Shown in pieces: positions 1,002-25,604 of a stretch of 30,213 nt of DNA. Below the pieces are notes generated by a model, which made no database searches, was not told the origin of the DNA, and saw only the letters and a program-made list of their open reading frames with translations. This DNA comes from a virus, in the IMG/VR virus record IMGVR_UViG_3300022926_000073, positions 1 to 30,213 of that record; one strand, written 5' to 3'. The position numbers and the translations under genes were made by a program. Within the stretch, counting starts at the first letter, position 1. Each line of letters starts with the position of its first letter.

Positions 1002-1649
1002 ATGAAAACTATTTTGACCTTAAAATATGGTGACAAATATACTTCTGATGACGTAAACAAGATATATACTGACACCAACGGCAAATATAATTATGTATGC
1101 GTGACTGATGATCCTAAAGGACTACATCCTAATATTTATACAATTTCTATTGACCATGAACCAGATGGGCATTGGGAAAAGATTAAACTTTTTCAGTATA
1201 ATTTTGGAAAAACTCTATACTTAGATTTAGATATTTGTATACAAAAAGATATAGATCATTTGTTTGATTATCTTGACAACACCCCGATGATTTGTTATAC
1301 TTATTGGAAGCCTTTAGAATTTCCTTATCACAAAGATGATCGCTGGTCTTATAACTATTTAAGTAATTTTAATTCAAGTGTCATGTTATGGGAAGATGCA
1401 CACCATATATATAATAAGTGGTTAGAAAATCAAGATTATTATATGGTAAAATATGCGGGTGATGATAGATTTTTGTTCCATGAAAACTTCACATTTGAAC
1501 ATTGGCCAGAAGGTGAAATATATTCTTACTGGTTTAATAGAGACGGGTTCCAACCAAATGCTACAATAGCTCTATTAAACGGACAAGAAAAGTTTCCTGA
1601 GTTGAGAGAAAAGTATTATGATGAACTTCGTGTGCATCAAATGGGGTGA
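1002..1649 (+). CDS. GT-A type glycosyltransferase, first of four tandem paralogues
   Basis: A 215-residue putative glycosyltransferase. The N-terminus (TLKYGDKYTSDDVNKIY) is a variant of the K-W-G-x-K-Y-x-P-x-x-V-N signature shared by the next three genes. A DxD motif (D75-L-D77 in LYLDLDICIQKDID) is the expected metal and nucleotide-sugar site of a GT-A fold. Further shared blocks are NSSVMLW (about residue 125) and the C-terminal PEGEIYSYWF. It is the shortest of the four and lacks the HPKYWF/WDR segment of copies 2 and 3, so its acceptor or sugar may differ. Its 3' end overlaps the next gene by 32 bases. Donor and acceptor cannot be read from sequence. Confidence 0.72.
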   Translation: MKTILTLKYGDKYTSDDVNKIYTDTNGKYNYVCVTDDPKGLHPNIYTISIDHEPDGHWEKIKLFQYNFGKTLYLDLDICIQKDIDHLFDYLDNTPMICYTYWKPLEFPYHKDDRWSYNYLSNFNSSVMLWEDAHHIYNKWLENQDYYMVKYAGDDRFLFHENFTFEHWPEGEIYSYWFNRDGFQPNATIALLNGQEKFPELREKYYDELRVHQMG

Positions 1650-2373
1650 TAAGTACACTCCGGATTATGTAAATAATTTATATCGTATGGTTGAGAGAAA
1701 CTATACGAAACCCTTTACCTTTACTTGTTACACAGATGAAACAGAAGGTTTAGAATGTGACACACATCCTATACCTGACGATGGATTATTGCATCCTAAA
1801 TACTGGTTTGGTAAAGAAGGTTATTGTTGGGATAGAGCAAAGTTTCTTGTATTCAATTCTGCACAGTGGTTAGGGTTGCTGGGTAAATGGTGTTACTTTG
1901 ATTTAGATGTTATCATACAAAATAACATAGACGATATAGAAATTCTAGCTGAAAAGCCGAGAATAATACATTGTAATTGGCAGCCAGGCAGGCAGAAAAA
2001 TGATAGAGAATTTTTTGAGATGCGAGGTACTTTTTATAATTCTAGCATGATGTTATGGAATGGCGAACAATGTAGACATATTTACAGTGATGTCTTTCAG
2101 AATGGTGAAATGGTATTCACAACCTTCTATAAAGGTTCAGATAACTATCACTATTGGCGCCAAAGAAGTTTTTGGAAGGACATACCAAGTAATTGGGTTT
2201 ATAGTTACAACAGAGGCATGAAACACCCAGAAGACATTGAACCCTTTATCTATAGACCAGATCCTAAAATCTGCTTATTCAATGTTGATAATACTAAACA
2301 CCCTGACGCTAAAAAACAAATCAAAATAAAAGAGTTAAAAGATGAGGCATTGCTTACTTTATGGGAAAGTTAA
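1618..2373 (+). CDS. GT-A type glycosyltransferase, second tandem paralogue
   Basis: A 251-residue protein opening with FVCIKWGDKYTPDYVNNLY, the array's signature. It then has FTCYTDETEGL, HPKYWF, a WDRAKF segment (about residues 71-76) and the DxD motif D95-L-D97 within YFDLDVIIQNNID. NSSMMLW and PSNWVYSYNRG follow, both shared with its neighbours. Two ATG codons stand in tandem at 1618 and 1621, so either may be the start. The gene begins inside the end of copy 1 and its own end overlaps copy 3 by 13 bases, so the set is probably translated as a coupled operon. The specificity is unknown. Confidence 0.75.
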   Translation: MMNFVCIKWGDKYTPDYVNNLYRMVERNYTKPFTFTCYTDETEGLECDTHPIPDDGLLHPKYWFGKEGYCWDRAKFLVFNSAQWLGLLGKWCYFDLDVIIQNNIDDIEILAEKPRIIHCNWQPGRQKNDREFFEMRGTFYNSSMMLWNGEQCRHIYSDVFQNGEMVFTTFYKGSDNYHYWRQRSFWKDIPSNWVYSYNRGMKHPEDIEPFIYRPDPKICLFNVDNTKHPDAKKQIKIKELKDEALLTLWES

Positions 2374-3197
2374 GAGTAAATTATATATGCTGCAAATGGG
2401 GCACCAAATATGGACCACACTTTGTTAATAAACTTTATAACATGGCCAAGCGAAATACCGATAGCGATAAATTTGATTTTCACTTTTATTGCTATACTGA
2501 TATTAGTGAAGGTCTTGAGCCTGACATTAAAGTTATTGAGTTTCCTGATATTCCCAATATTCATCCTAAGTATTGGTTTGATTCTGATAAGTTCAAGTAC
2601 GGCATGGCTCGTTGTTGGGATAGGCCTAAAACTTTTATTTTTAATACTCACAATTTTGCTCCTGATAAGCCTACTGGTCGGTTCGTTTTTTTCGATTTAG
2701 ACGTAATTATACAAGATGACCTTGAACCTATAATCATGTATGACTTAGAACACCCTACTAAACTAAGAAGTTGGTGGCAGGATCCTAGACCAATGAAAAG
2801 TAGACAATTTAAATTGGGCCATGGTGCCTATACAAATGGTTCATGTATGGTTTGGAGTGACGATCAAACTGAATGTATTTGGGATGATGTATTAGAACAC
2901 CAGGAACGCATATGGTATACTTTTACTGATGGTACAGACAATTATCATAGTTGGCGTTGGGGTATGTTTAGACCTGACGGCAAAGAGCCTCTCTGGAAAC
3001 ATTTCCCAAAAGAATACGCATACTCTTATAATAGAGGTAGGGATTGGGATTCAGAAGATTTAGAGGTTGATAAGTATCGCAGTGATGCTATATTGTGTAT
3101 ATTTAATGTTGACTTACTACCATTTGAGGATTCTAGTAGAGGTAAAACAAAACAAGATAATTTAGCAGATCCTAACTTGTTGGAGCATTGGAAATGA
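2361..3197 (+). CDS. GT-A type glycosyltransferase, third tandem paralogue
   Basis: At 278 residues this is the longest copy. It carries the signature YICCKWGTKYGPHFVNKLY, then FYCYTDISEGL, HPKYWF (about residues 69-73), CWDRPKTF and the DxD motif D112-L-D114 in FFDLDVIIQDDLE. C-terminal shared blocks are NGSCMVW, DGTDNYHSWRWGMF and AYSYNRGRDW. The DNYH-x-WR block is shared with copy 2 but not with copies 1 or 4, so copies 2 and 3 are probably the closest pair. It overlaps both neighbours. A role in adding a sugar to a phage or host glycan is inferred from the fold and from the two methyltransferases downstream. Confidence 0.75.
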   Translation: MGKLRVNYICCKWGTKYGPHFVNKLYNMAKRNTDSDKFDFHFYCYTDISEGLEPDIKVIEFPDIPNIHPKYWFDSDKFKYGMARCWDRPKTFIFNTHNFAPDKPTGRFVFFDLDVIIQDDLEPIIMYDLEHPTKLRSWWQDPRPMKSRQFKLGHGAYTNGSCMVWSDDQTECIWDDVLEHQERIWYTFTDGTDNYHSWRWGMFRPDGKEPLWKHFPKEYAYSYNRGRDWDSEDLEVDKYRSDAILCIFNVDLLPFEDSSRGKTKQDNLADPNLLEHWK

Positions 3198-3877
3198 TTA
3201 ACATATATACTGTGAAGTGGGGATTTAAATATGGCCCTGAACACGTTAATAAAATTTTTGAACAGTGTAAGGAACATATTACAGAAGAATTTGAGTTTTA
3301 TTGTTTAACTGAACACCCCGTTGGATTATCTCCTGAAATAAATGTTATTCCTTTACCTCGTGATAACTATTATGAGAAGTGGTGGAATAAACTGTATTTG
3401 TTTGACAAGTATCTTGTTAAGCAGGAGGGAGAAAAACTATTCTTAGATTTAGATATTATTATACAAAAAAATATTGATTGTATTGTAAATTATGATCCAG
3501 AAGATAACCTGGTGTTTGTTAAAACACATTGGCACAATATAGTTAAAATGAAAAAAGATTTGAAAGATATTCCTCACAAGTATACTGATCTTAACTCAAG
3601 TATTCTTAGGTGGAATGACAAACTAGATATTGATAAAATAACAAAATTTGTAAAAGATTATGCTAGTCAAATGTTTTTTTATTATCGAGGATTAGATAAC
3701 TTATTCGGTCATCAAAGAAGAAGACTTTTAAATATTGATTTTTTTCCTTCTGGTTGGGTATACAGTTATAACTATGGATACATATGGCCTTCAGATATTG
3801 AAGAAAAGAAATTTAGAGATGAACCTTTAGTATGTTTATACGACTCAATGGAGCGACCACAAGATGTTAAACTATAA
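3194..3877 (+). CDS. GT-A type glycosyltransferase, fourth tandem paralogue
   Basis: The start is chosen at the ATG at 3194, which overlaps the stop of copy 3 as ATGA. The frame can be extended to a TTG at 3188, but the ATGA junction and alignment with the other copies favour 3194 (227 residues). It opens INIYTVKWGFKYGPEHVNKI and continues FYCLTEHPVGL, then the DxD motif in LFLDLDIIIQKNID (about residues 82-95). NSSILRW and PSGWVYSYNYG complete the family pattern. Its end overlaps the following methyltransferase gene by 14 bases. The specificity is unknown. Confidence 0.74.
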   Translation: MINIYTVKWGFKYGPEHVNKIFEQCKEHITEEFEFYCLTEHPVGLSPEINVIPLPRDNYYEKWWNKLYLFDKYLVKQEGEKLFLDLDIIIQKNIDCIVNYDPEDNLVFVKTHWHNIVKMKKDLKDIPHKYTDLNSSILRWNDKLDIDKITKFVKDYASQMFFYYRGLDNLFGHQRRRLLNIDFFPSGWVYSYNYGYIWPSDIEEKKFRDEPLVCLYDSMERPQDVKL

Positions 3878-4523
3878 TTTTTTAAATAACTATAAAAACT
3901 GGGGCAGTGCTTTAGATAAAATTGGACATGAGATGCCTTATAAACATGAGGACTTTCGTAAATCTTTAAACCCAAACTCAATGGAAGCTTCTATTTGGTT
4001 GGTTGAAGAATTACAAAAAGTTTTAGGATCAGTAGAAAAGAAACTCAACATAACTGTTTTAAATTCTTGGTTAGGATTTCCTTTAGTTCCTTTACTGTGT
4101 GAGAATCTAAATGTAGAAAAATTGAATCTTATAGATGTAGACCGGGACGCCTTAGAGTTGTCAAAAGTTTTTAATAAGTATTATACCGATCAAAATATTG
4201 ATCTTAATCATATTAATTGGGATGTTCCGTTTGCTTTTCACGATATAAATGCTTTAAACACAGACGTAGTTATATCTTTGTCAGCAGAAACAATGTATCC
4301 ATTGAGAGAACTCACAACAGCGAATCCTGAATGTATATTTGCTGTACAAAATTCTAATTTAATAAAAGAAATGTACGGTATTAATTGTGTTGATAGTATA
4401 GAAAAACACGCAGAAAACACAGGCATTAAGGATGTTTTGTATAGTGGAAACATCAAACAAAATTATTGGACTTTTGATGGTTTAAATGAATATGACCGTT
4501 TTATGATTATTGGTAGTAAATAG
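3864..4523 (+). CDS. Class I SAM-dependent methyltransferase-like protein
   Basis: A 219-residue protein with the layout of a class I methyltransferase. A beta1/loop segment (ITVLNSWLGFPLVPLL, residues 63-78) takes the place of motif I but lacks the usual GxGxG. The acidic end of beta2 follows in LNLIDVDRDALELS (residues 87-100), and a motif IV-like strand in DVVISLSAETMYPL (about residues 134-147). The NSWLG form with an SAE block resembles phage methyltransferases that depart from the textbook glycine loop. It overlaps the fourth glycosyltransferase by 14 bases and precedes a second methyltransferase by 2 bases, which suggests a joint task such as methylating a sugar or a carrier. Substrate unknown. 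Confidence 0.62.
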   Translation: MLNYNFLNNYKNWGSALDKIGHEMPYKHEDFRKSLNPNSMEASIWLVEELQKVLGSVEKKLNITVLNSWLGFPLVPLLCENLNVEKLNLIDVDRDALELSKVFNKYYTDQNIDLNHINWDVPFAFHDINALNTDVVISLSAETMYPLRELTTANPECIFAVQNSNLIKEMYGINCVDSIEKHAENTGIKDVLYSGNIKQNYWTFDGLNEYDRFMIIGSK

Positions 4524-4525
4524 TT

Positions 4526-5122
4526 ATGATGGGAAAAAATGGTACTAATGAAGACACTAAAGAATTGTGGAAGATATTACCCGAAAACTCTTTGGGAGCT
4601 GAAATAGGTGTATGGAAAGGAGAGTCTACTAATAGATTTTTAAGAAGAGCTAGACATATACATATGGTAGATCCCTGGAGTATAACAGCGTATGATGAAT
4701 CTACTGATTGGTTGAATATAGGTGTTGACGGCATTATGAAAAGATATGCTTACATGGTAGGGTCAACTAAACGTGAAGATTATGAAAAATTTTATGATGA
4801 ATTATATGAATCCGTGTGTGAAAAGTTTAAAGACAAACCAGTAACCATACACAGAATGACGTCTACAGAATTCTTCAATATGTATGAAGGTGAAAAATTA
4901 GATTGGATTTATATTGACGGTGACCATGCGTATGAAGCGGTATATTCAGATTTAAATAACTGCTTAAAAGTTATGAAAGAAGGTGCTAGAATATACTGTG
5001 ATGATATTGCCGCGGATAACAGACAACACCCAGGAGTTAGACAAGCGGTATCACAATTTTGTAAAGAGAATGACCTAACTCCTAGAAGAAAATTTAAAAA
5101 TCAGTGCATCATTCAACTATAA
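4526..5122 (+). CDS. Class I SAM-dependent methyltransferase (Methyltransf_24/TylF-like)
   Basis: A 198-residue protein with recognisable methyltransferase motifs in order: motif I GAEIGVWKGEST (residues 24-35), HMVDPW at the end of beta2 (46-51), LDWIYIDGDHAYEAVYSDL around residues 125-143, and GARIYCDDI (153-161) followed by HPGV. The YIDGDHxYE and CDDI blocks are typical of the metal-dependent O-methyltransferase-like group that often acts on sugars or small molecules. ATG codons stand at 4526 and 4529; either could start. It is the last rightward gene and its stop overlaps the end of the leftward oxygenase-like gene by 10 bases. Methylation of a sugar added by the upstream transferases is a reasonable inference only. 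Confidence 0.72.
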   Translation: MMGKNGTNEDTKELWKILPENSLGAEIGVWKGESTNRFLRRARHIHMVDPWSITAYDESTDWLNIGVDGIMKRYAYMVGSTKREDYEKFYDELYESVCEKFKDKPVTIHRMTSTEFFNMYEGEKLDWIYIDGDHAYEAVYSDLNNCLKVMKEGARIYCDDIAADNRQHPGVRQAVSQFCKENDLTPRRKFKNQCIIQL

Positions 5123-5769: not shown

Positions 5770-6506
5770 CTTTCTAATTCTTCCTTAGGTATTGTATGAT
5801 GATAAAGCACAATCTCAGTTCCCTTTAACTCGTCTGGAGTATATCCATTGATAAAATTCCATCTAGCATCCGGTTCTTTTATGTAACCCCAATTAATATC
5901 ATGTCCACCGTAAGTTAATAGGCGCCACATGGTGAACGTATCCCATTTAATGGCATCCTTAGGATAATGTGCTATGTCATAATCAGGTTCCCATTGTTTT
6001 AAATATTCAGTCCACCAGGCACCCATAAGATCCATCATTGCTGGAGTTTTTCTATATATGAAGAACCCACAGTGACAGGTCATTTCTTCAGTATTAGATA
6101 GCTTAGTTAATTTTGCATTGTAAGGTCTATTTTTTGTAAACACAATGTCTTTGTCATCAGGCAATTGATCAAAGACATTTACAATATCTTCGTGCATACA
6201 CATCATGTCTGCATCTAAATAGCAAGTTATGTCATAGGGTGTTTTATTCAATGCCCAGAGTTTGGTACGAATATGAGAAGGGACATCGTCTTTGATAATA
6301 TTATCAAACAAGTCATAGTCTTCTTCTTGTACCCATTCTTTTTCTGTAAAGAAAGTTATGTTTGCTTCAGGCCAAAAGTCTCTAACTGATTCTGCTAAAA
6401 GCTTAGCATACCTATAGAATGCGTGCTTCTTAGAAGCAACAATTATAAAGCCTTTACTTTGCTTCTTCTTCTTCGCTTTAAAGCCTTTACTTTGCTTCTT
6501 CTTCAC
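5766..6506 (-). CDS. GT-A glycosyltransferase with duplicated Lys-rich N-terminus
   Basis: A 246-residue protein with a GTG start at 6506, preceded by AAGGA about 8 bases upstream. The core begins GFIIVASKKHAFYRYAKLLA and carries FFTEKEW, a HIRTKLWALNKTPYD segment (about residues 78-92) and a D98-A-D100 motif in TCYLDADMMCM, all typical of GT-A glycosyltransferases of the GT8 kind. MTCHCGFFIYRKT and a C-terminal LYHHTIP complete the pattern. It is not closely like the four-copy plus-strand family, as it lacks the KWG signature. The first 20 residues contain KKKQSKGF twice, owing to a 33-base duplication. It sits between a charged hypothetical protein and the oxygenase-like gene, both overlapping it. 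Confidence 0.72.
   Translation of the reverse strand: MKKKQSKGFKAKKKKQSKGFIIVASKKHAFYRYAKLLAESVRDFWPEANITFFTEKEWVQEEDYDLFDNIIKDDVPSHIRTKLWALNKTPYDITCYLDADMMCMHEDIVNVFDQLPDDKDIVFTKNRPYNAKLTKLSNTEEMTCHCGFFIYRKTPAMMDLMGAWWTEYLKQWEPDYDIAHYPKDAIKWDTFTMWRLLTYGGHDINWGYIKEPDARWNFINGYTPDELKGTEIVLYHHTIPKEELER
6446..6504 (-). repeat. 26-base direct repeat, 33-base offset, across a gene junction
   Basis: Bases 6446-6471 and 6479-6504 are identical over 26 positions. The 33-base offset is 11 codons, so the glycosyltransferase frame is kept and gains the residues KAKKKKQSKGF. The copy nearer the start also encodes the last residues and stop of the upstream 162-residue gene. Confidence 0.9.
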
Positions 6507-6975
6507 TTTCCATGTCCTTTATAACTAAAGCTGTTGTCATAACGTGTACTTCCATGACACTTTTGGCTTTACGTATCTTTCTTTTCATCTCTGAATTTTT
6601 AGAATTTTTAACAGCATCAATTTCAAATGCTAACAGTTTTGCTGAAAACAATTCTTCTTGCAATGCTCTTGATCGTTGTGATTCTCTACGCTCTGCTTGT
6701 TTTCTAAGGTTTTCATTACGTCTACGTAAACCGTCATCAGTATTTTTCATTATCTGTTCTTCTGTATATAACTCAAGAACAGCTTTCATATCCGGATTTG
6801 TTCCGTCTTTATCCTGAATAGAAGCAATGCTTTCTTTGCCATTAGGTTGTTTAATGGTTACGATGAGATGACGATTTTCCTTATTAGCCCAATAAGGATG
6901 TAGGTATTGTTTACCTGTAGAGGTAATCTGTTGTCCGGTAACCGGGGCGTCTGCGGGTGCAGTAACTTCTGCCAT
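6487..6975 (-). CDS. Charged conserved hypothetical protein of T4-like marine phages
   Basis: The frame opens at 6987, but the start at 6975 (MAEVTAPADA) is preferred: GGAG stands 6 bases before that ATG, inside what would otherwise be codons 2-3. The 162-residue product has a short disordered N-terminus, a compact segment YLHPYWANKENRHLIVTIKQ with NGKESIASI, then a strongly charged helical or coiled-coil stretch (RRRNENLRKQAERRESQRSR, about residues 83-102) and FEIDAVKNSKNSEMKRKIRK. It resembles small conserved proteins of cyanophages as I remember them, but I cannot name a function. It is the first gene after a consensus sigma70 promoter and overlaps the glycosyltransferase by 20 bases. Confidence 0.6.
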   Translation of the reverse strand: MAEVTAPADAPVTGQQITSTGKQYLHPYWANKENRHLIVTIKQPNGKESIASIQDKDGTNPDMKAVLELYTEEQIMKNTDDGLRRRNENLRKQAERRESQRSRALQEELFSAKLLAFEIDAVKNSKNSEMKRKIRKAKSVMEVHVMTTALVIKDMESEEEAK

Positions 6976-6999
6976 AATATTCTCCATAATTAAAACTAT

Positions 7000-7028
7000 A
7001 TTATATTAGTATATAGTCAAGTTGTCAA
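7000..7028 (-). promoter_or_regulatory. Consensus sigma70 (early-type) promoter, leftward
   Basis: On the minus strand TTGACA (7028-7023) and TATAAT (7005-7000) are separated by exactly 17 bases, a perfect match to the bacterial housekeeping consensus. The -35 box overlaps the TGA stop of the upstream repeat protein. Transcription would start around 6993, just ahead of the GGAG/ATG of the 162-residue gene, and would cover that gene, the glycosyltransferase and the oxygenase-like gene. In T4-like phages such promoters serve early genes. Confidence 0.75.
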
Positions 7029-8950
7029 GCAGTTCTTAACCAAAGTTTCAATGTAGATACAGTATCTTTTGATGCCTGTATTGTATCTCCAGCGTATTGT
7101 CCAGTATATGCACCAGTGTATGTGCCGCTGTATGCTGAAGTACCTACATAGTTGCCAATATAGGAACCTGTGTATGTGCCAGTGTATGTGCCGCTGTATG
7201 CTGAAGTACCTACATAGTTACCAGTGTAGGAACCTGTGTATGCGCCAGTATAAACACCTGTGTAAGTTTTAGGACCAGTGTAATATCCAGTATAGTTACC
7301 AGTGTATGAACCAGTATAAACACCTGTGTAAGTTTTAGGACCAGTGTAATATCCAGTATAGTTACCAGTGTATGAACCAGTATAAGAACCAGTATATGTT
7401 GAGGTACCTACATAGTTGCCTGTATAGTCACCGGAGTATGCGCCAGAATAAGAACCAGTATATGTTGATGTACCTACATAGTTACCTGTGTATTGACCTG
7501 AATAAGCACCTGAATAAGAACCAGTATATGTTGATGTACCTACATAGTTACCTGTGTATTGACCTGCATATTGGCCCGCGAAGTTTCCTGTATACTGTCC
7601 TGTGTATGTTCCGGAAAATGATCCATAATTTACACCTGCGTAATACAGAATATACGAACCGGTATAATTGCCAGAAAATTGACTAGAGTAGCTACCTGTA
7701 TATTGACCAGTATACTGACCAGAGTATGTTTTATTTCCTACATATCCACCTGCATAAGCACCTGTATATGCACCAGTATACTGACCAGAGTATGTTTTAT
7801 CTCCTACATATCCACCTGCATAAGCACCTGTATATGCACCAGTGTATGTGCCGCTGTATGTTTTATCTCCTACATATCCACCTGCATAAGCACCTGAATA
7901 GTTACCGGAGTATGCGCCAGAGTAAGCAGAAGTACCTACATAGTTACCAGTATAGTCACCTACATAAGCACCGGCGTATGTGCCAGAGTAAGCAGAAGTA
8001 CCTACATAGTTACCAGTATAGTCACCACTATAAGTACCGTCATACGAACCGACGTATGTTTTGGCGCCTGTGAAAGCTCCTGCATAACCGCCATCGTAGC
8101 TACCAGCATATGGGCCACTGTATGTTTTGGCGCCTGTATAGTTACCAGTATAATTACCAGTATAATTACCTGAATACTGTTGTGAAGCAACTGCTTGTCT
8201 AGTATCAGTTAGGTTGTCGCCCATCTGAACCCAAGTTCCAGTACCTGGAATTGATGCTTGAAGTTTATATGTACCTACACCTGAGTCAATAATTCTGTTT
8301 CTGAAATTCGGTACCATCTGCTCAATTTCAGCAGCACTCATCTGTTTTAAGCCACTATCATATTTTAGTGAAGTGTAATCAGCATTTGCTGAGGTTGTGG
8401 GAGCAGTTTTTTGCCACAAATATTTTAGATTATCGCCACTAAGAGAAGAATCTGTAATAGTATATCTTGAAGTCCAAGTACCACCGCTTGGTGCAGAAGC
8501 TGCTAATGTATATTGACCTACAGTATAGTCAGTCTCAGAAACCATATCACCGATTACTTTATCTAAAACATCAGTGTCTAAATCAGAATCAGTCATTTCT
8601 TTTACGGCTGAATCATATCCTACAAGACGATTTGTTATACTTTCTGTTGCCGATGCTGTTACTTGTTTGAAGTAATATGTAGTAGAAGTTGTAGACCCAG
8701 AAGCAGGGTGAGTTCCAATCGCTTCTGTTCTTTCTGTATCAACAAAGGTACCTATTGAAGTACCCGCAAGAGCATTTGCGGTATCTACGTTAAGCTCGGC
8801 AGTGCCGGTACCATCCGTATCACTAGCAAACTTATTTGTAATTACATAGGATAAATATTGATTAATCTCACCATCTGACATTTCCTGCAAACCCTGAAAA
8901 TTTGCCGAAGTAATCGGTGATCCTGATGCTTTAATTCTTAATGGCTGCAT
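7025..8950 (-). CDS. Virion-type protein with a long 22-residue Tyr/Gly repeat domain
   Basis: A 641-residue protein. Residues 1-258 contain three copies of a short helix-like motif (LQEMSDGEINQYL, VKEMTDSDLDTDVL, LKQMSAAEIEQMV, near residues 21, 116 and 201). The last two are linked with beta segments of the form VG-x-Y-x-L-x-A-S-x-P followed by GTW. Residues 259-622 are almost wholly Y-x-G-x tetrads arranged in 22-residue units of four tetrads plus one hexad (Y-x-G-x-[SK]-[TA]). A short tail ends LKLWLRTA. No catalytic motif or signal peptide is seen. It lies in the fibre and baseplate block next to a fibre-type protein, so a virion fibre or sheath-like role is inferred. The Shine-Dalgarno is weak (AAGAGA about 11 bases before the ATG). 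Confidence 0.7.
   Translation of the reverse strand: MQPLRIKASGSPITSANFQGLQEMSDGEINQYLSYVITNKFASDTDGTGTAELNVDTANALAGTSIGTFVDTERTEAIGTHPASGSTTSTTYYFKQVTASATESITNRLVGYDSAVKEMTDSDLDTDVLDKVIGDMVSETDYTVGQYTLAASAPSGGTWTSRYTITDSSLSGDNLKYLWQKTAPTTSANADYTSLKYDSGLKQMSAAEIEQMVPNFRNRIIDSGVGTYKLQASIPGTGTWVQMGDNLTDTRQAVASQQYSGNYTGNYTGNYTGAKTYSGPYAGSYDGGYAGAFTGAKTYVGSYDGTYSGDYTGNYVGTSAYSGTYAGAYVGDYTGNYVGTSAYSGAYSGNYSGAYAGGYVGDKTYSGTYTGAYTGAYAGGYVGDKTYSGQYTGAYTGAYAGGYVGNKTYSGQYTGQYTGSYSSQFSGNYTGSYILYYAGVNYGSFSGTYTGQYTGNFAGQYAGQYTGNYVGTSTYTGSYSGAYSGQYTGNYVGTSTYTGSYSGAYSGDYTGNYVGTSTYTGSYTGSYTGNYTGYYTGPKTYTGVYTGSYTGNYTGYYTGPKTYTGVYTGAYTGSYTGNYVGTSAYSGTYTGTYTGSYIGNYVGTSAYSGTYTGAYTGQYAGDTIQASKDTVSTLKLWLRTA
7085..8176 (-). 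repeat. Tandem 66-base repeats encoding Y-x-G-x tetrads
   Basis: The stretch encodes residues 259-622 of the repeat protein: an 18-residue opening unit, six regular 22-residue units (277-408), an irregular 66-residue middle equal to three unit lengths (409-474), six more regular units (475-606) and four closing tetrads (607-622). Some neighbouring units are nearly identical in DNA, notably the two that contain YYTGPKT (residues 519-562), while others have diverged at wobble positions and in the variable residue. Confidence 0.9.
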
Positions 8951-8964
8951 GTTTTTTTATTCTC

Positions 8965-9459
8965 TTAGTTCAGACGATTGCCAGACGAATCATACACAAT
9001 AGTTTCGACCATTGTGTTCCAATTTGAGCTACTAGTGCCTACAAGTTTAGAAGATGTTCCTGCAGGAATCGTTATAGCAGTGTTGATGCTACCACTATTT
9101 ATAGTTCCTGAGGTGTTGGGATATATTTTCACACTAACACTTGTAGCATTAATAATAGTATATAAAAGTCCTTCTTCGGCAGTTGGTAATTTAATTCCTT
9201 GATTGTTTGTAGCAGTTGTAACAATATTAAAAGTTTTGGATAATAATGTTGCACCACCTTGTGTAGTTCCGGCTGCAGCAACTGTTGTTCCTATTGAAGC
9301 AACAATATCTCCACTTATTGTGACATCGGCAACATCAATGTTGTCTCCGGATTCATACTTGTCCTCATTTAAATTAATGAAGTTAGTATCCATCTCCGTG
9401 TTAGTTAATGCAGATCCCTTAGCGGATGCACCTGTGTCTCTTGTTACAATAGTGGCCAC
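8965..9459 (-). CDS. Fibre-type virion protein, 164 aa
   Basis: The start is a GTG at 9459. The sequence ATIVTRDTGASAKGSALTN, EMDTNFINLNEDKYESGDNI and VADVTISGDIVAS is typical of short fibre-head or adaptor proteins of marine T4-like phages. The second half is beta-rich: KTFNIVTTATNNQGIKLP, YTIINATSVSVKIYP and the closing WNTMVETIVYDSSGNRLN. The gene lies 3 bases after the 77-residue gene and 14 bases before the Tyr/Gly repeat gene, on the same strand. A structural role is inferred from context; no enzyme motif is seen. Confidence 0.65.
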   Translation of the reverse strand: MATIVTRDTGASAKGSALTNTEMDTNFINLNEDKYESGDNIDVADVTISGDIVASIGTTVAAAGTTQGGATLLSKTFNIVTTATNNQGIKLPTAEEGLLYTIINATSVSVKIYPNTSGTINSGSINTAITIPAGTSSKLVGTSSSNWNTMVETIVYDSSGNRLN

Positions 9460-9462
9460 GTA

Positions 9463-9696
9463 TTAGTTCCCGGATAACTTTTCTATAATTAAATTTAAAC
9501 TTTCTTTGATGTCTTTTATATCCTTATTCAATGTATTTATATCCTTTTGACATTGAATAATTTTATTTTTTTCTTCATGTCGTAAAGCTCTTGCCAATTT
9601 ATATTCAGCAAGAGCTTTGTTGTCAGTGCTCAAAATTGCTTTGGAGCCTGTTTCTCTAATTAAATTATTTTCGCCTTCTACTTTTTGGTATTTCAT
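9463..9696 (-). CDS. Small coiled-coil protein, 77 aa
   Basis: A short, charged protein beginning MKYQKVEGENNLIRETGSKA. The second half (about residues 40-75) has heptad-like spacing of I and L (KIIQCQKDINTLNKDIKDIK, then ESLNLIIEKLSGN), which predicts a parallel coiled coil. Its ATG overlaps the stop of the giant baseplate-associated gene as TAATG. A small coiled-coil protein next to large fibre genes would fit a fibre-associated or assembly role, but I recognise no named family. Confidence 0.6.
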   Translation of the reverse strand: MKYQKVEGENNLIRETGSKAILSTDNKALAEYKLARALRHEEKNKIIQCQKDINTLNKDIKDIKESLNLIIEKLSGN

Positions 9697-12600
9697 TATA
9701 CAGCCAACGCATATGCTCTAAGATTTGCAGATTTAGGTACTTGTGAAGTATTGGAACTCACATGTACAATTTTAATAGCATATGATTTGAAGCCTGTATA
9801 TAAATTACTTGTCATAGTAGCTGTCAATGTAGCACCTGCACCATTTCCTGATATTGTAGGAGCAACTGCAAGTGTTGGGGTACCTGAGTATCTACCTGGA
9901 TCTTCAACACTAATTCCCGTAATTTCGCCACTGCTGCCAACTGAGGTAATAATTGCTCTACCTCCTCTGCCGTCGCCACCAGTTATTCTTATTGTATCGC
10001 CTGTATCGTAACCAGTACCTGCCGCGTCAATAGTAATTGAAGAAATTTCTTTAGTAACGTATTCTAGTACGCCTGAGCTATTAACACCTATGTTATCAGA
10101 TCCTCTAGCAGGAATCTTGTAAACATATTCTGCCCAACCTTTAGCTGAGGTATCAAACGGTGAAGATTCAACTTCTAGTTCTTTCCAAATAATATCTTCT
10201 AAGAAGTCGCCTGAATCATCAGCTTTGTTTTGGAACTTAGCATATACTTTAACATCACCTTGTGCTTTCTTGTTGTCTAGATATACTTTCAAATCTTCTG
10301 CGTCTTGTCCGTCTGCGAGAACAACCTTCTTACTGATGTATCTAGTATCAGCTGAGCCGCCGGTTGCAACTTCTTCACCGCTTGCGTCATTGTTGATCTT
10401 GTTAGTAATCATCAACATACTGGTAGAACCTGCATTAACCATTGGACTCAAATTATCTACTTCAGTCTTAAGGCCAAATTGCACACTAGCTGTTGCGCCA
10501 CGAGTTGAATCAAAACTATTTGAATAACTATATATTTTACATGGGTTCGACAATTCAGTTGTTTTATTAATAACAATGTCTGAGAATGTTTCGGTATTAC
10601 CTGAACCCGCACCCATAAAGTTAGGAGTTTGAGTCCTAGTAGTGTGTGAAGAACGAGTTAGCAACATCCTAGGAGTAAGTTTACCATAACTACCATAGTT
10701 AGCTACCCTAGACTTCAGAACAAATGCGTCAATAATTCTATCATGTATTGTACCGATTGTAACGTCTGTTGTTCCATCAGTTACTTTGCTACTATGGGTA
10801 TCATCAAAGTGACCTTGTGTGATTTCAATTTCATGGGTATTATACTTAACTATCTTTCTTGCAACTCTACCTCTATTTAATCTTACAGTAGCAGTAGCTC
10901 TGTCTGTACCAGAAGAAGGATTTGCAATAGTAATTGTAGGTGCTCTAAAATAACCTGAACCGTAATCAGTTACAGTGAATCCGGTTACTTGTCCACTACT
11001 ATTTGTGTTGGCAGTAAGAGCAAGTCCAGTACCACCTGTGTTTGTATTATCCACCTCAACAACAACAGAAGTTGAGCTTGTAGCATATCCTGCACCGTCA
11101 TTTGTGATGTTAAATGTAAATCCATGAACAAATGTACCTGGATCGAATGAAGTAGATTCATCAAACTCAATCCAATCCATGTTTTTGTGTTTCATGTTTA
11201 CAACAAACTCACGGCCAGTTCTAAAGAAACAACGCTTGATTCTGAACATCAAATCTTGATTCTGATGAGGTGTCCAAGATCTGTTGTTTGCTGAAGTAAA
11301 CAGAACACCTGCTGCTGCTTGTTTACTAATTACTCTGGAAGTTCCTACTTCATTTTGACCCAACTCTGCCAACCAAATTTCATAATTAGGATCGTTTCTG
11401 TCTGGTATTGGTACCAAACAATATTCAGTATTGTTCTCTAGGTAAATAGGATTGTCAAATCTAAAAGTAGTTGACTTAAATGTAACTGCACCAGAAGCAG
11501 TAGGAGGACACGGAGTACAATCATTTCTTCTCTTGTGTACTCTTCCTAATGAAGTAGGACCGGGCATACCGTTAATTACTTCTCTAACTTCTAACGTAAT
11601 ACCGTTATCACTTGCTTCAGTTGCTATTCGTTTGAAGAACAAATCTACTTCTGACATGTACATACCACCAGGCATACCTTCAACCAAGAAAGTTTGTGCC
11701 ATTGGATCCCAGCCGTTCGGGCAATACATTCCGTACATATCTGTCATCATGCTGCCAAGAGCTATCATCTCAGCTTTTACTTGTTCTCTTAATGCTTTTT
11801 CTATATCTGCACTATCAATATCGTAGGTGATTTCAATATCTGAATCTACAGTTGTAATTGTAGGAGTAGCCTCGCCTACACTAGGGTCAGTAAAGTTGTT
11901 GTTTGATGCTGATACTTTTGGTTGAGTATATGTATTAGTCGTAGTCATGTAAACATTGCTAAAAGTATTATTAGCAGTATTTACCAAATGAGCTGGATTA
12001 GCACCTGATACTACGTTGGTTAGTGATACTGCATCAGAGCTAACTGCGGCAGAAGTAGATGATTCTACTTCATTAACAGTGCCTGTATCTTGTGTAAATA
12101 TAGAATTTACAAGACCTGCAGCGCTGTCCTGATACAATATTGAGGTTTGAGTATATCCGTGATCTATTATCTCCGGGTAAGAATCTACCTTAGTAACCAC
12201 AGTATTGACAATAGGATCTTTCTTAATCAACTTACTTCTGAGCTTAGTAGTAGTTGATCTAGGAGCTACAATATGCTGTTTAGTAGTTGTAGTAGTAGAA
12301 ATCTCATGCTGAGCAGTAAAGAAAGCAGAAGCATAAGATTCTACATTCATATAATGTTTTTCTGCACCAGAAGCTACAACCATAATCTCATGTGTTCCTA
12401 CTTTTAATTCACCATCAGAAACACTAATAGTTCCTGAAGCATTTCCTAAGCTATCAGACCACACAGTCCCCTTGTCTATACCGCCTATAACAACATAGTG
12501 AGGCATGTTTTCACATAGACCTTCTACCGAGAAGTCAATGGCTATAGGTCTCATATATGAGGTCAAAGACTTAACTACTTCTGTTTCAGAATCTGTTTCT

Positions 12601-15600
12601 ACAATTGGACCAGGTAGAATACCGTTATAATAAGGATCTATTTTATACCCTGTTTCAATAGTGTTTGTAGTAACTTCTTCATAAACATCCCATTGTTTAG
12701 TGGTCCACGAATAGTATCCTTCTTCAGCATAATCAGAAGTACCTTCTCCCGCCCTTTCAGAAACTACGTATTCTGTTTCTGTTTCTGACCCGACTAAATC
12801 TGTGTATGAAGTTTTAGTTACAGTAATAATAGGATCTGAATCTTCCCAACCGTTCCATGTTACATTCCAAGGTTCAGGATAAACAAACTGACTGTACTCG
12901 CCTGTTTTATCTTCAAGTACAATGTCATAAGATTCATAAGACATCCAAGCATCTTCTGTGGGAGAAATACTCATAACACCCGCACAAACTCTAGTAGGAG
13001 GAGTAAAAGCTATACAGGATTGGGTAGATTCGTCCCAAGTATAACCAGGTCCACAGGGTGGTCTTTCTTCTATTGAAGTGTCATTAATAATTACGCTTGT
13101 AGATTTTGAACCAGTAGAATAACCAAGGCCGTCAGTGGCGCCTAAAGTAAATGTTAGAGTTTCATCTGCGGTATCAGAATCTTCTGCTATATTAAAGGTA
13201 ATACTAGCGGTTGCGATAGGCGCTGTGTTAGTAAATGTTAGGGTTCCTGTTAAACTTGCTCCACTTATATCAGCAGAATCAACACCTGTTACTGTATAAT
13301 CTACGGTATTGCTTGTTCTGTGATTTTCTGCTTTCACTGAAATTGTAACTGAGCTACCTTCATCCACTCTATTTTTACTTCTAATTAAAGTATAGATTGG
13401 ATTTGGATCATCTATAGGAGCGTCATCAACATCTGTGTCTGTAGTATTATCGGTGTCAGTTGCTGGAGTATCCTGAATAGGATCAGCCGGAACCGGTATT
13501 TCAATATAGTTATTAACTACAATAGTTTCAGATGTTGGAGCCGGTATGTCACCTAGTTTAGTTTCTAAATCATCTACACCTACTATAAGTGCCGCAATAT
13601 TAGCAGCATTCTGAGCTGCATTATTGAGAGCGGTGTTCACACCATTCTGCGCATTAGCCGCCGCTTGAGCTGCACTAGCTGCTCTTTTTAATGCTAAGTT
13701 TGCTGTATCTAAAGCATTGTCAATGGCTTCTGCTACTGGGTCTGTTGTGTCATACAACAATTCAATAACAACAGGTACTGCCTGGCTGGCCTGCATCTGT
13801 TCTGCATACACTCTTTGTTCAAAGGGGACGTGGAATACAGAACCTGATTGTCCAGCACCGTTACCTGAAGTATCTATTGCTCTGAAATCTATAGTAGACT
13901 CGTTGAAATATGCACGAAGATTTTGACGTTTGCCATCAATGGATGCTTTGAAGTCGGGATGACCTGAAGAGGCAACGCTATGTCCCTTGAAAGAATCTAC
14001 CAATAGCCCGTGTTTAAATCTGTCAACACCGGAAGAATCAAGTATCTGTTGATCTCTAGCTTCTTTTTCTAACATTGAAAGAGAAGTATAATATTCAATA
14101 TTTGTAATTCTTCTTTCTAGTTTACCAATGTCTCTCATTGTGTAATGAGGATTTTCTAAATTAGAAACTCTAAGTGCGAGATCCGTTCTATTATAGAACA
14201 TTGCGGACTTAGGAGTCAAGCAAGGAAACGGAGGACATACAAATGTTGCTAATGTCATCTTGCCTGAATCACTATAAGGAGCAGCTACTTTTTCTCCTTT
14301 GGGTGCTTCTGCGATAGAAACTTCTCCGTTCATATCCACTGCACATCTAAATGCCTGAGGAACATAAGAGTAAATATCAGTTTCAAATACACCATCTATA
14401 GTTGGGAAAGTATAATTTGACCATTCAAGTGTTTCTATAGAACTAGGATTATATGAAGTAATATCTGATGCTGTTCCATTAAGCTTATCAAGAATTTCAT
14501 CTTCGGCACGACAATAAGGTCTAAAATCTACACAATCTCTCAGGTCATATACCCCATGTTTTTGAGATGTAAATATAGGGATTTCCTGATAATATATCTG
14601 TGTAGAAGCAGCTGTGGCTGTTTCTGAGCTAGGTAACGGATAAGAATCCACTGTAGTAAAACTTACATTGGTACTTCCTCTTGAAAAATAATCAAACTCA
14701 ACATTTAAATATTTGTATGTGCTAAGATTTAGTGTACTTGAACCTTTCTTTGTTATAAAAGCAAGTCCATAGTAGTTATCTTTTTGACCATTAGTTAATC
14801 TAAACTCTGCTGTTACATCTTTTGAACCAGCACTGAATCCAGAAGTAATAGTATCCCCTGAATTTATTTGTGAGGTTGTTGTTGAAAGAACAATAGTATC
14901 CGCATCCGGAACACTGGTAACTGTTCCCACAATCACACCATTAGAATCTTTGAGTAACGAGCCTAGAACTACTTCTGTGTCAGCAGCGCCTCCACTGCCT
15001 GTAATTGTATTTGAACCATCAGAAGTCCAGGTACCTGTAAGAGTATCTTCAGTATATGCTGTTACTGAACGTAGTTTATATACATCTGGAACGCCTAACG
15101 AGTATTGACCACCAGTGTGATTGGGGTGGTTATCAATATCTATTCTTATATTTTGTTGTTTTTGTGCTGTTTTGCTTATAGGGCTAAGAGAAGTACCAGT
15201 ATTGGTAACAGTTGTGTGTGCATATGCTTTAAATGAAGCGATTCCTGCTGTAACAGCACCTCCTAGATCTATTCTAACGTAACCACCTGTTGATGTATCG
15301 CCAGAATCATATAGTGTTTCTGCGTCTATGATTTGACCTATTTTATAGGTTACGCTGTTTGCTGTAAACTCAGTAGTTGCTACTAGTATAAGATTAGCAT
15401 CAAGATTTGCGGCGGAATTTGCCCAGGGGAAATTTTCAAGATTTCCACCATCTGCTTCAATATCAAATGTTCTTGATGTAATACTGGTTATATCAATTTC
15501 TTTAAAATATTCAAATTGATAGTTATTAGCATTACTACTGTCTTGTAATGTTTTAATAGACTTTTTGGGCAAACGCCACAACATTCTATTATAGTCGGTT

Positions 15601-17111
15601 TCTTCAAGTGTCGCAGAAGATGCAACTACATCTGCATACGCATCAATAGTTCCATTTTCATAATGTAATCCTTGAACGTCTGTAAAATCACCACTAGTAA
15701 TTTTAATGTCATATAGGTAAAGTTTATATCTTGCTGTTGCTGTACCAATAGTACCCGATGAATGAACAATCTGACGTACTTTGGCCTCGCCTATTTTAGT
15801 ATTTGAATTAGTTACATTACCTACATTACCAGTACCTAAAACATATGTTGCCGCACCTATAGTACCGTCATATAAATCTACAATACCATCACCGTTAGTT
15901 AATGAACCAATATCCCAAACACCTGCCATTTCGTCAACTTCAATGTAGTTGCCGTAAGAAGTAGTAAGTGTACTGGCATCTGATTTAACTGATGTAATGG
16001 GTTTCTTAAAGGGGATTGGTAACTCGTTATCTAGAGATCTAAGATATCCGTTTATGTTAGCTTTACCGGGAGAAATTGTAGCAATAAGAAGTGAGTTATC
16101 ACCTCCTTCTGCAGCAGTAAATCTACCACCATTCAATGAATCTTTTAAGTGTTCTTGTACATTTACATAGTAACCGTTGACAACATAATTGCCATTAGCA
16201 GCGTGTGCTCTTTTAGCAATCTCATCACCTAACTGTGAGAGTGGATCGTTTTTAATTTTGTGGGTAATAAACTTACCATATTGATAAGTACAGTATCTAA
16301 AAAAGTTATCAGGTGGGGCTGTGTCTAAAGGAATAGATCTTAAAGTAACTGATACTTTATACCTATCTGCTCCAGGAGAGTTATAGTTATATGTACCTGA
16401 TGCTGGATCTAACAAAGTGCCGTCTGTGTCTGCACCTACAATACTTTCGTCTACTACGAAACCAATCTGTCGTCTAACAACAGAATTATGTCTGTCTACA
16501 TAACAACCTATTTTGTCTGTTCTAATAAACTGTCCCTTAGCATATATGATACCAGGAGACAATTGAATTCTTTGTGCGTGTCCCCAATATCTTTTCTTCA
16601 GAGTGTCAGTAGCATCAGCTACTTCAAAAGTATCTCCGTTCCAAAAACCAGGGGAGACAACAGTGAGTATTTCACCGCTGTCAAAATGTTGAGCTTTAGT
16701 GGTGTTTGTGGTTCCACCGCCGTCAAAGTATGAAAGATATAGTGTTTTCTCATCACCGTTAGAATCGTTTTCTGTACCGCCTCTAACATCTATAATTGTT
16801 GCTTTGAGTCCAGTGGTCCCACCCTCTACAGTTTCTCCAATGTAGTTGGGCAATGTGTTATTAGTATAATCGGCAGAGTCATTTACTTTAATATAAGGAA
16901 CACTGGATGTAAATTCTTCACACCCTGAAATAACCGCACCCTCCTTGAGAGTAAAGCTACTTATTTGTCCAATTTGATCTTGCAGTACAGTTTGAAGCTG
17001 AGTTAATTCTCTAGCTTGTACGGCAACCCCTGGCTTAAACAGAATCCTGTTATAGTTATTATCAGGGTCAAAATCGTCATAGTACGGTGATGTGTTTAAA
17101 TTAAGCGCCAT
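9696..17111 (-). CDS. Giant DUF4815-type baseplate/fibre structural protein, 2471 aa
   Basis: The N-terminus (YYDDFDPDNNYNRILFKPG, VQARELTQLQTVLQDQIGQI) is the DUF4815-type start found in marine T4-like virion proteins. After a long beta-rich part there is an Ala/Asn-rich predicted coiled coil (about residues 1127-1183), an Asp/Thr-rich acidic linker (about 1200-1235), a Calx-beta-like domain (about 1240-1347, with VDEGSSVTISVKAEN, EDSDTADETLTFTLGATD and TSVIINDTS) and a small Cys segment (CGPGYTWDESTQSC). Near residues 1800-1830 comes DPMAQTFLVEG followed by SEVDLFFKR, a hallmark block of this family. G-x-G-Y beta modules lie near 2000, 2045 and 2360. It follows gp8, the place where T4 has genes 9 and 10. 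The exact structural position is unproven. Confidence 0.75.
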   Translation of the reverse strand: MALNLNTSPYYDDFDPDNNYNRILFKPGVAVQARELTQLQTVLQDQIGQISSFTLKEGAVISGCEEFTSSVPYIKVNDSADYTNNTLPNYIGETVEGGTTGLKATIIDVRGGTENDSNGDEKTLYLSYFDGGGTTNTTKAQHFDSGEILTVVSPGFWNGDTFEVADATDTLKKRYWGHAQRIQLSPGIIYAKGQFIRTDKIGCYVDRHNSVVRRQIGFVVDESIVGADTDGTLLDPASGTYNYNSPGADRYKVSVTLRSIPLDTAPPDNFFRYCTYQYGKFITHKIKNDPLSQLGDEIAKRAHAANGNYVVNGYYVNVQEHLKDSLNGGRFTAAEGGDNSLLIATISPGKANINGYLRSLDNELPIPFKKPITSVKSDASTLTTSYGNYIEVDEMAGVWDIGSLTNGDGIVDLYDGTIGAATYVLGTGNVGNVTNSNTKIGEAKVRQIVHSSGTIGTATARYKLYLYDIKITSGDFTDVQGLHYENGTIDAYADVVASSATLEETDYNRMLWRLPKKSIKTLQDSSNANNYQFEYFKEIDITSITSRTFDIEADGGNLENFPWANSAANLDANLILVATTEFTANSVTYKIGQIIDAETLYDSGDTSTGGYVRIDLGGAVTAGIASFKAYAHTTVTNTGTSLSPISKTAQKQQNIRIDIDNHPNHTGGQYSLGVPDVYKLRSVTAYTEDTLTGTWTSDGSNTITGSGGAADTEVVLGSLLKDSNGVIVGTVTSVPDADTIVLSTTTSQINSGDTITSGFSAGSKDVTAEFRLTNGQKDNYYGLAFITKKGSSTLNLSTYKYLNVEFDYFSRGSTNVSFTTVDSYPLPSSETATAASTQIYYQEIPIFTSQKHGVYDLRDCVDFRPYCRAEDEILDKLNGTASDITSYNPSSIETLEWSNYTFPTIDGVFETDIYSYVPQAFRCAVDMNGEVSIAEAPKGEKVAAPYSDSGKMTLATFVCPPFPCLTPKSAMFYNRTDLALRVSNLENPHYTMRDIGKLERRITNIEYYTSLSMLEKEARDQQILDSSGVDRFKHGLLVDSFKGHSVASSGHPDFKASIDGKRQNLRAYFNESTIDFRAIDTSGNGAGQSGSVFHVPFEQRVYAEQMQASQAVPVVIELLYDTTDPVAEAIDNALDTANLALKRAASAAQAAANAQNGVNTALNNAAQNAANIAALIVGVDDLETKLGDIPAPTSETIVVNNYIEIPVPADPIQDTPATDTDNTTDTDVDDAPIDDPNPIYTLIRSKNRVDEGSSVTISVKAENHRTSNTVDYTVTGVDSADISGASLTGTLTFTNTAPIATASITFNIAEDSDTADETLTFTLGATDGLGYSTGSKSTSVIINDTSIEERPPCGPGYTWDESTQSCIAFTPPTRVCAGVMSISPTEDAWMSYESYDIVLEDKTGEYSQFVYPEPWNVTWNGWEDSDPIITVTKTSYTDLVGSETETEYVVSERAGEGTSDYAEEGYYSWTTKQWDVYEEVTTNTIETGYKIDPYYNGILPGPIVETDSETEVVKSLTSYMRPIAIDFSVEGLCENMPHYVVIGGIDKGTVWSDSLGNASGTISVSDGELKVGTHEIMVVASGAEKHYMNVESYASAFFTAQHEISTTTTTKQHIVAPRSTTTKLRSKLIKKDPIVNTVVTKVDSYPEIIDHGYTQTSILYQDSAAGLVNSIFTQDTGTVNEVESSTSAAVSSDAVSLTNVVSGANPAHLVNTANNTFSNVYMTTTNTYTQPKVSASNNNFTDPSVGEATPTITTVDSDIEITYDIDSADIEKALREQVKAEMIALGSMMTDMYGMYCPNGWDPMAQTFLVEGMPGGMYMSEVDLFFKRIATEASDNGITLEVREVINGMPGPTSLGRVHKRRNDCTPCPPTASGAVTFKSTTFRFDNPIYLENNTEYCLVPIPDRNDPNYEIWLAELGQNEVGTSRVISKQAAAGVLFTSANNRSWTPHQNQDLMFRIKRCFFRTGREFVVNMKHKNMDWIEFDESTSFDPGTFVHGFTFNITNDGAGYATSSTSVVVEVDNTNTGGTGLALTANTNSSGQVTGFTVTDYGSGYFRAPTITIANPSSGTDRATATVRLNRGRVARKIVKYNTHEIEITQGHFDDTHSSKVTDGTTDVTIGTIHDRIIDAFVLKSRVANYGSYGKLTPRMLLTRSSHTTRTQTPNFMGAGSGNTETFSDIVINKTTELSNPCKIYSYSNSFDSTRGATASVQFGLKTEVDNLSPMVNAGSTSMLMITNKINNDASGEEVATGGSADTRYISKKVVLADGQDAEDLKVYLDNKKAQGDVKVYAKFQNKADDSGDFLEDIIWKELEVESSPFDTSAKGWAEYVYKIPARGSDNIGVNSSGVLEYVTKEISSITIDAAGTGYDTGDTIRITGGDGRGGRAIITSVGSSGEITGISVEDPGRYSGTPTLAVAPTISGNGAGATLTATMTSNLYTGFKSYAIKIVHVSSNTSQVPKSANLRAYALAV

Positions 17112-25262: not shown

Positions 25263-25604
25263 TCAATCTGCAAAAACATCTCCGGAACCCTGGGACACTG
25301 TTCCAGTGTCACAGCTGTCTCCTTTTCTTCCTATTAATCTACCATTAACATATACTGTACTGGCAGAGGATGACAAAGATCCTCTATGCGGTAAACAAGG
25401 ATATGAATATTGAGGTACACCTTCATCGTATCCATCTAAAGTTTTTGTTGGAATAGTATGTTGATCGGTTTTATCACTGTGTCTTGCTACCCCCAATCCG
25501 TTGGCAAATACATTAGTTGAAACTAAATCCATTTGTCCCTGAGTTGTACAGCCGTGACTAATATTACTAACAGTGTCGGTTTTTCTTGCTACATTGCTTG
25601 CCAT
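25263..25604 (-). CDS. PAAR-type spike tip protein (gp5.4-like)
   Basis: A 113-residue small protein with PAAR character: repeated short G/N turns (NISHGCTTQG, VYVNGRLIGRKGDSC, TGTVSQGSGDVFAD) and scattered His/Cys (H17, C19, H42, C70, H73, C98) that could hold the metal ion at the tip. PAAR proteins cap the trimeric spike and sharpen it for membrane piercing; T4 gp5.4 is the known example. The gene directly follows the spike gene gp5, with AGGAAAG overlapping the gp5 stop as its Shine-Dalgarno. Which residues bind the metal cannot be fixed from sequence. Confidence 0.8.
   Translation of the reverse strand: MASNVARKTDTVSNISHGCTTQGQMDLVSTNVFANGLGVARHSDKTDQHTIPTKTLDGYDEGVPQYSYPCLPHRGSLSSSASTVYVNGRLIGRKGDSCDTGTVSQGSGDVFAD

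Follow-up and report, generated by a model that had tools for sequence, protein, structure and literature searches.

The question raised by this locus is what shape is taken by the Tyr/Gly repeat of YG641, a gene in the 30,213-nucleotide stretch of DNA analysed here (the window), which is carried by an uncultured T4-like virus of bacteria. Protein repeats normally say nothing about which of their units touch each other; here a mirrored Lys/Ser code allows the strand register to be fixed from sequence alone, and the repeat is very probably one long antiparallel beta-hairpin, locked in register and turning at a distal tip. The features discussed below are listed in Table 1.

Table 1. Features of the YG641 locus, with positions in the window
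Feature	Residues	Positions	Strand	Remarks
Fibre gene YG641		7025..8950	minus	641-aa ORF; three tandem N-terminal domains, Tyr/Gly ribbon and 19-residue C-tail
Base domain copy 1	16-99	8654..8905	minus	AF2 elements E18-23, H26-43, E53-56, E64-74, E87-96; three-copy motif alignment
Base domain copy 2	105-183	8402..8638	minus	short loop in final hairpin 158-167/174-183; BLASTP, AF2 strands
Base domain copy 3, first part	194-258	8177..8371	minus	last strand continues into outgoing arm
Outgoing arm of ribbon	259-432	7655..8176	minus	hexads AKT AKT TSA TSA DKT DKT NKT
Hairpin tip	433-445	7616..7654	minus	YILYYAGVNYGSF
Return arm of ribbon	446-622	7085..7615	minus	hexads TST TST TST PKT PKT TSA TSA; pairs with outgoing arm at i+j=880
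C-tail	623-641	7028..7084	minus	TIQASKDTVSTLKLWLRTA; supplies the final strand of base copy 3
Putative fibre chaperone, 166-aa charged protein		6487..6987	minus	role from position only; adjoins YG gene in all testable loci
Glycosyltransferase-like protein, 246 aa		5766..6506	minus	YLDADM motif; weak Pfam matches to Glycos_transf_2, Nucleotid_trans, Glyco_transf_8
Oxygenase-like protein, 218 aa		5113..5769	minus	H121, N123, R189 invariant, H181 nearly so; 2OG-type assignment weak
164-aa protein directly upstream of YG641		8965..9459	minus	same place in close relatives
2471-aa structural protein, T4-like baseplate/tail region		9696..17111	minus	phrog_358, E 1e-250

The repeat and its place in the base

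Residues 259-622, encoded by exactly positions 8176-7085, consist of Y-x-G-x tetrads with a two-residue addition (forming a hexad) every 22 residues. Of the 364 residues 83 are Tyr and 86 are Gly; His is absent. The 22-residue register that the first-pass annotation had described there was borne out. The 14 hexads (Y/F-x-G-x-[KS]-[TA]) have their first residue at 271, 293, 315, 337, 359, 381 and 403 and again at 469, 491, 513, 535, 557, 579 and 601, spaced by 22 throughout except for a single interval of 66, and the residue autocorrelation reaches 0.65 at lag 22, where lag 4 gives 0.47 and odd lags give 0.02-0.04. The DNA copies of the unit share a mean identity of 66% (range 47-94%), with a divergence of 0.49 at third codon positions versus 0.33 and 0.22 at the others, and the closest copies are neighbours within one arm (519/541, 365/387 and 475/497). 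Since the units have diverged, and most at third positions, the register is held by selection on the protein and not by recent slippage, as had also been proposed.

The hexads are symmetric about residue 440, with seven on each side in blocks of 2-2-3 and 3-2-2. Their types run KKSSKKK before the middle and SSSKKSS after it, and antiparallel reading places every K opposite an S. The 66-residue interval, previously noted as an irregular middle, was confirmed as an interval and is better read as the tip of a hairpin, the mirror symmetry around it having been missed.

A second line of evidence comes from the three tandem domains that precede the ribbon. With the ribbon omitted, base copies 2 and 3 align by BLASTP with an E value of 5e-8 and 32% identity; the last two strands of copy 2 are joined by a loop (residues 168-173), and in copy 3 the ribbon sits at the place of that loop. 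W240 of the GTW motif and T640 of the RTA motif sum to 880, the same centre as obtained from the hexads, and the GTW/RTA spacing agrees with the hexad centre in 28 of 45 proteins, the remainder being 1-2 residues off, at base indels. Judged from these alignments, the ribbon is an insertion into copy 3 of the tandem domain, where it takes the place of a short loop. One relative, L054, has no arms, and its tip YILYYAGVNYG (YILYYAGVNYGTF) sits directly on the base, so the arms represent growth between base and tip.

Mirror register and co-variation among relatives

Scanning IMG/VR with the window protein turned up 54 loci, almost all of which carry this gene, and a DNA pattern search for five Y-[TSAP]-G-x tetrads gave at least 119 stretches, many of which share the N-terminal part, with ORFs reaching at least 3,134 residues among the matches listed. 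In this family a conserved N-terminal region (about 258 residues) is followed by a Tyr/Gly stretch whose length differs greatly between members, and then by a conserved tail of some 20 residues that closes with LW-[LIV]-[RK]-T-A; the unit-number variation that the first-pass annotation had proposed to look for is present in the IMG/VR relatives. Among 50,697 phage records a single relative was found, a 3,347-residue hypothetical protein of Phage C48C1 (annotated Kyanoviridae). The fibre family is widespread and had been almost without annotation. In the Phage C48C1 protein (L001:12001-22044) Y-x-G-x tetrads are mixed with Y-x-R-x tetrads, and several non-repeat inserts and a recent internal duplication are present.

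When the base is used to anchor the register, 234 of 241 hexads among 80 homologous proteins from IMG/VR lie at mirror positions, and matches at other offsets are absent except at 10, 20, 22 and 30, which follow from how the hexads are spaced. Base and first hexad are as far apart as last hexad and tail in all 34 measured proteins, over lengths from 16 to 36, and the hexad-bearing architectures tested have equal counts per side (7+7, 4+4, 3+3, 2+2 and 1+1). Other mirrored architectures with K opposite S are KKKS/KSSS, KKS/KSS, KS/KS, SK/SK, KSKS/KSKS and KKSS/KKSS; in the last two the spacing is 10, mirrored likewise (L040, L063, L100 and kin).

The residues that face each other in this register also co-vary. 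Exactly one Lys occurs in 113 of 117 facing hexad pairs, which include 104 Lys:Ser, 6 Lys:Gly, 3 Asp:Lys and no Lys:Lys. When one protein was taken per architecture (n=17), 41 of 45 pairs held a single Lys under antiparallel pairing, a value reached by none of 100,000 shuffles; parallel pairing of the two halves gave 9 of 45 and was rejected. In mirror register Tyr lies opposite Gly and never opposite Tyr. A non-Gly partner (Arg, Gln, Asn) is commoner for Phe than for Tyr; the odds ratio of 7.1 takes no account of relatedness and draws in part on pairs close to the tip. On a tree built from the N-terminal part, architecture changed about 26 times and single arm features 11-16 times, with nearly equal numbers for both arms; the mirror pattern arose on this tree through about 11-26 coordinated changes. 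Among the giant relatives (1,250-3,347 residues), gapped self-alignment was mirror-positive in L087 (1,250 residues) and L170 (1,721 residues) only, and it gave no positive result for the others, Phage C48C1 included.

These data bear on the proposal of a flexible or disordered repeat whose register is a by-product of unequal crossing-over in the DNA. Adjacent units are the most alike, hence tandem duplication does occur, and the AlphaFold2 (AF2) confidence in the ribbon is low; however, third positions have diverged more than first and second ones, and the mirror register survives many coordinated changes. Moreover, duplication within one arm cannot match the number and the Lys/Ser type of the units in the other, so the 2-2-3 and 3-2-2 blocks point to selection on pairing. 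We therefore consider this explanation highly improbable.

Folding of the ribbon

In the hairpin proposed here, the chain would leave the third base domain, run out for about 175 residues, turn at the tip around residue 440 and return in strict register, completing the last strand of base copy 3. Each Tyr would face a Gly on one face of the ribbon, and the two extra residues of the hexads would oppose each other, with Lys on one arm and Ser on the other acting as periodic register locks. Three chains would combine into a thin shaft, and trimerisation as a tail-fibre shaft is probable; the base domains would anchor the fibre at the baseplate with the tip toward the host, which the tip may contact at residue 440. 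Shaft length would be tuned in whole units through matched additions to both arms, and such paired insertions offer a testable route by which a virus alters the length of its fibre. An extended strand covers about 0.33 nm per residue, and the arms of the window protein, if fully extended, would measure roughly 58 nm. For materials, too, a modular Tyr:Gly beta-ribbon of natural origin is of interest.

AF2 predictions of monomers are confident for residues 1-258 (pLDDT mostly above 90), which form repeated helix-plus-strands domains, and of low confidence for the ribbon (pLDDT about 22-75). They agree with the earlier expectation of a beta-rich repeat in a fibre-like protein, and we infer beta structure along the whole ribbon. 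In a 409-residue relative, strands were predicted at residues 259-276, 286-293, 308-325, 335-353 and 365-407, mostly with pLDDT 40-60; strands 308-325/335-353 and 259-276/365-407 are placed as mirror images about the sequence-derived centre (i+j=660), and from the strand extents in this model we infer that they pair.

For the window protein AF2 drew instead solenoid-like two-residue strands (EE--EE--EE--EE--EEEE--), with pLDDT rising to 75 between residues 461 and 550, which together with the strict 22-residue register of the window would suit a beta-solenoid in which each unit is one coil, Tyr ladders run along the stack and the hexad forms a corner. This fold, put forward in the first-pass annotation, was not borne out and is now very unlikely, since the two arms mirror each other in unit number, unit spacing and Lys/Ser type. 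Mirrored hexads, equal arms, Lys facing Ser and a mirrored spacing of 10 are all unpredicted by it, and no credible solenoid match was found in the PDB, where the best neighbours of the AF2 model are ice-binding and antifreeze proteins with E values of 0.15 and above. A parallel coil of constant 22-residue length was rejected on the spacing of 10 and the antiparallel order of units across the family. AF2 has been reported to build unrealistic solenoids when given repeat sequences (PMC11795689), so the solenoid-like pattern constitutes weak evidence against the hairpin.

Database comparisons likewise returned no credible Pfam, PHROG, PDB or Foldseek match for the fold, in agreement with the earlier impression that it lacks a described counterpart. 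The window protein had no match in PHROGs, where 27 relatives gave weak matches only; a profile search of PDB sequences with the fibre protein found no fibre; Foldseek gave nothing at E ≤ 0.001 against PDB or BFVD; and no Tyr-Gly fibre repeat was found in the open-licence papers searched. Residues 364-406 pass the Pfam cut-off for Gly-zipper (PF13441; 70.1 bits versus 28.9), but this is a composition match on two units. Zipper families are membrane helices, and AF2, at low confidence, shows strand or coil and no helix in the repeat, so this assignment was rejected.

The antiparallel pairing could also be established between the chains of an intertwined trimer or other oligomer, as in domain-swapped needles. 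Precedent exists in the T4 gp37 needle, which has six antiparallel strands from three intertwined chains (PMC9659904), and sequence co-variation is blind to the difference between intra- and inter-chain contacts. Nothing direct speaks against such an arrangement, but the insertion point lies within a hairpin of base copy 3, which makes pairing within one chain the simpler case; we regard inter-chain pairing as possible and on the unlikely side.

The gp37 needle is among the nearest known systems, being an antiparallel thin fibre from a fibre gene of a T4-like phage, with a chain that is thought to run out to a distal tip and back, and this out-and-back trait is found in YG641 as the mirror register and its co-variation. 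The two show no sequence similarity detectable by profile search of PDB sequences. The arms of YG641 differ in being repetitive, extendable and register-locked by Lys:Ser hexads, and whereas the needle has iron-binding His motifs, the ribbon has none, so that no His-coordinated iron sites are expected in it. The gp38 adhesins of S16 and PP01 are similar in having glycine-rich motifs at the fibre end in T4-like phages. They are described as polyglycine-rich domains, from which the period-4 Y-x-G-x repeat with mirrored arms seen here appears to differ. The mirror-paired Tyr-Gly hairpin appears to be an extendable fibre shaft of a new kind. The broader proposal of a new extendable architecture, combining a Tyr:Gly ribbon, Lys:Ser locks, matched two-arm insertion, lengths of thousands of residues, and a dedicated chaperone with a modifying glycosyltransferase and oxygenase, is more tentative, and we hold it to be somewhat less probable than its negation.

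The conserved fibre cassette

YG641 lies in a T4-like baseplate/tail region with gp6-, gp25-, hub- and tube-cap-like genes, and the large structural protein encoded nearby has homologues in 875 phage records, several of them annotated 'structural protein'. The order fibre, 166-residue protein, glycosyltransferase-like protein and oxygenase-like protein was found in all 55 testable loci among the matches listed, these being pattern-found loci with a fibre gene of the family and enough downstream sequence, and it is present in Phage C48C1 too. A conserved four-gene fibre cassette can thereby be named in uncultured T4-like phages, two genes of which resemble modifying enzymes.

The names given to the three downstream proteins are tentative. 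No family was found for the 166-residue protein. In the glycosyltransferase-like family D98 and D100 of YLDADM (the DxD of GT-A) are invariant, while the curated Pfam score is not reached: the best glycosyltransferase match has an E value of 0.0013 (20 members), and the window protein scores 13.5 bits versus a cut-off of 23.3. The oxygenase-like protein conserves H121-N-N123, H181 and R189, with Asn in place of the Asp of the HxD/E...H triad, and one relative matches 2OG-FeII_Oxy weakly (E 0.06).

As an addition to the hairpin, and in keeping with the first-pass annotation, which had named the repeat a candidate target for modification, the ribbon might be the substrate of both adjacent enzymes, with Tyr, Ser or Thr glycosylated and some residues hydroxylated, in a logic comparable to that of modified collagen. 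The fixed gene order lends this indirect support and the weak similarity to GT-A families is consistent with it, but the oxygenase is without a clear HxD motif, and the near-repeatless relatives L050 and L054 retain both enzymes, making the tip, the base or another target equally likely. In addition, phage glycosyltransferases near fibres have also been proposed to alter host LPS (PMC7029224), and modification of the ribbon itself is at present doubtful. The same study describes in marine T4-like phages a pelagimyophage host recognition cluster, in which a large structural gene is followed downstream by tail fibre and glycosyltransferase genes (PMC7029224), a placement of fibre and glycosyltransferase that the YG641 locus shares; neither tyrosine nor glycine was matched in its text, so it describes no Tyr/Gly repeat.

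Several further observations were made at these loci. A tandem repeat of about 33 bases at 6446-6509 spans the overlap of the 166-residue and glycosyltransferase-like genes and gives the glycosyltransferase-like protein two copies of a KKKQSKGF-like peptide at its N-terminus. On the opposite strand, positions 1002-5122 (plus) hold four similar glycosyltransferase-like and two methyltransferase-like genes, partly conserved in relatives. A 440-residue protein, adenylate-forming (PaaK-like) by eye, lies between the fibre and 166-residue genes in L007 (7345-8667) and L008. An exception in gene order is L134, where the glycosyltransferase gene comes after a YG protein that lacks the usual base, and the 166-residue and oxygenase genes come after a base-bearing repeatless protein. 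Finally, a 113-residue protein at 25263-25604 (minus), between the gp5-like and gp25-like genes of the window, resembles by eye a PAAR-type spike tip.
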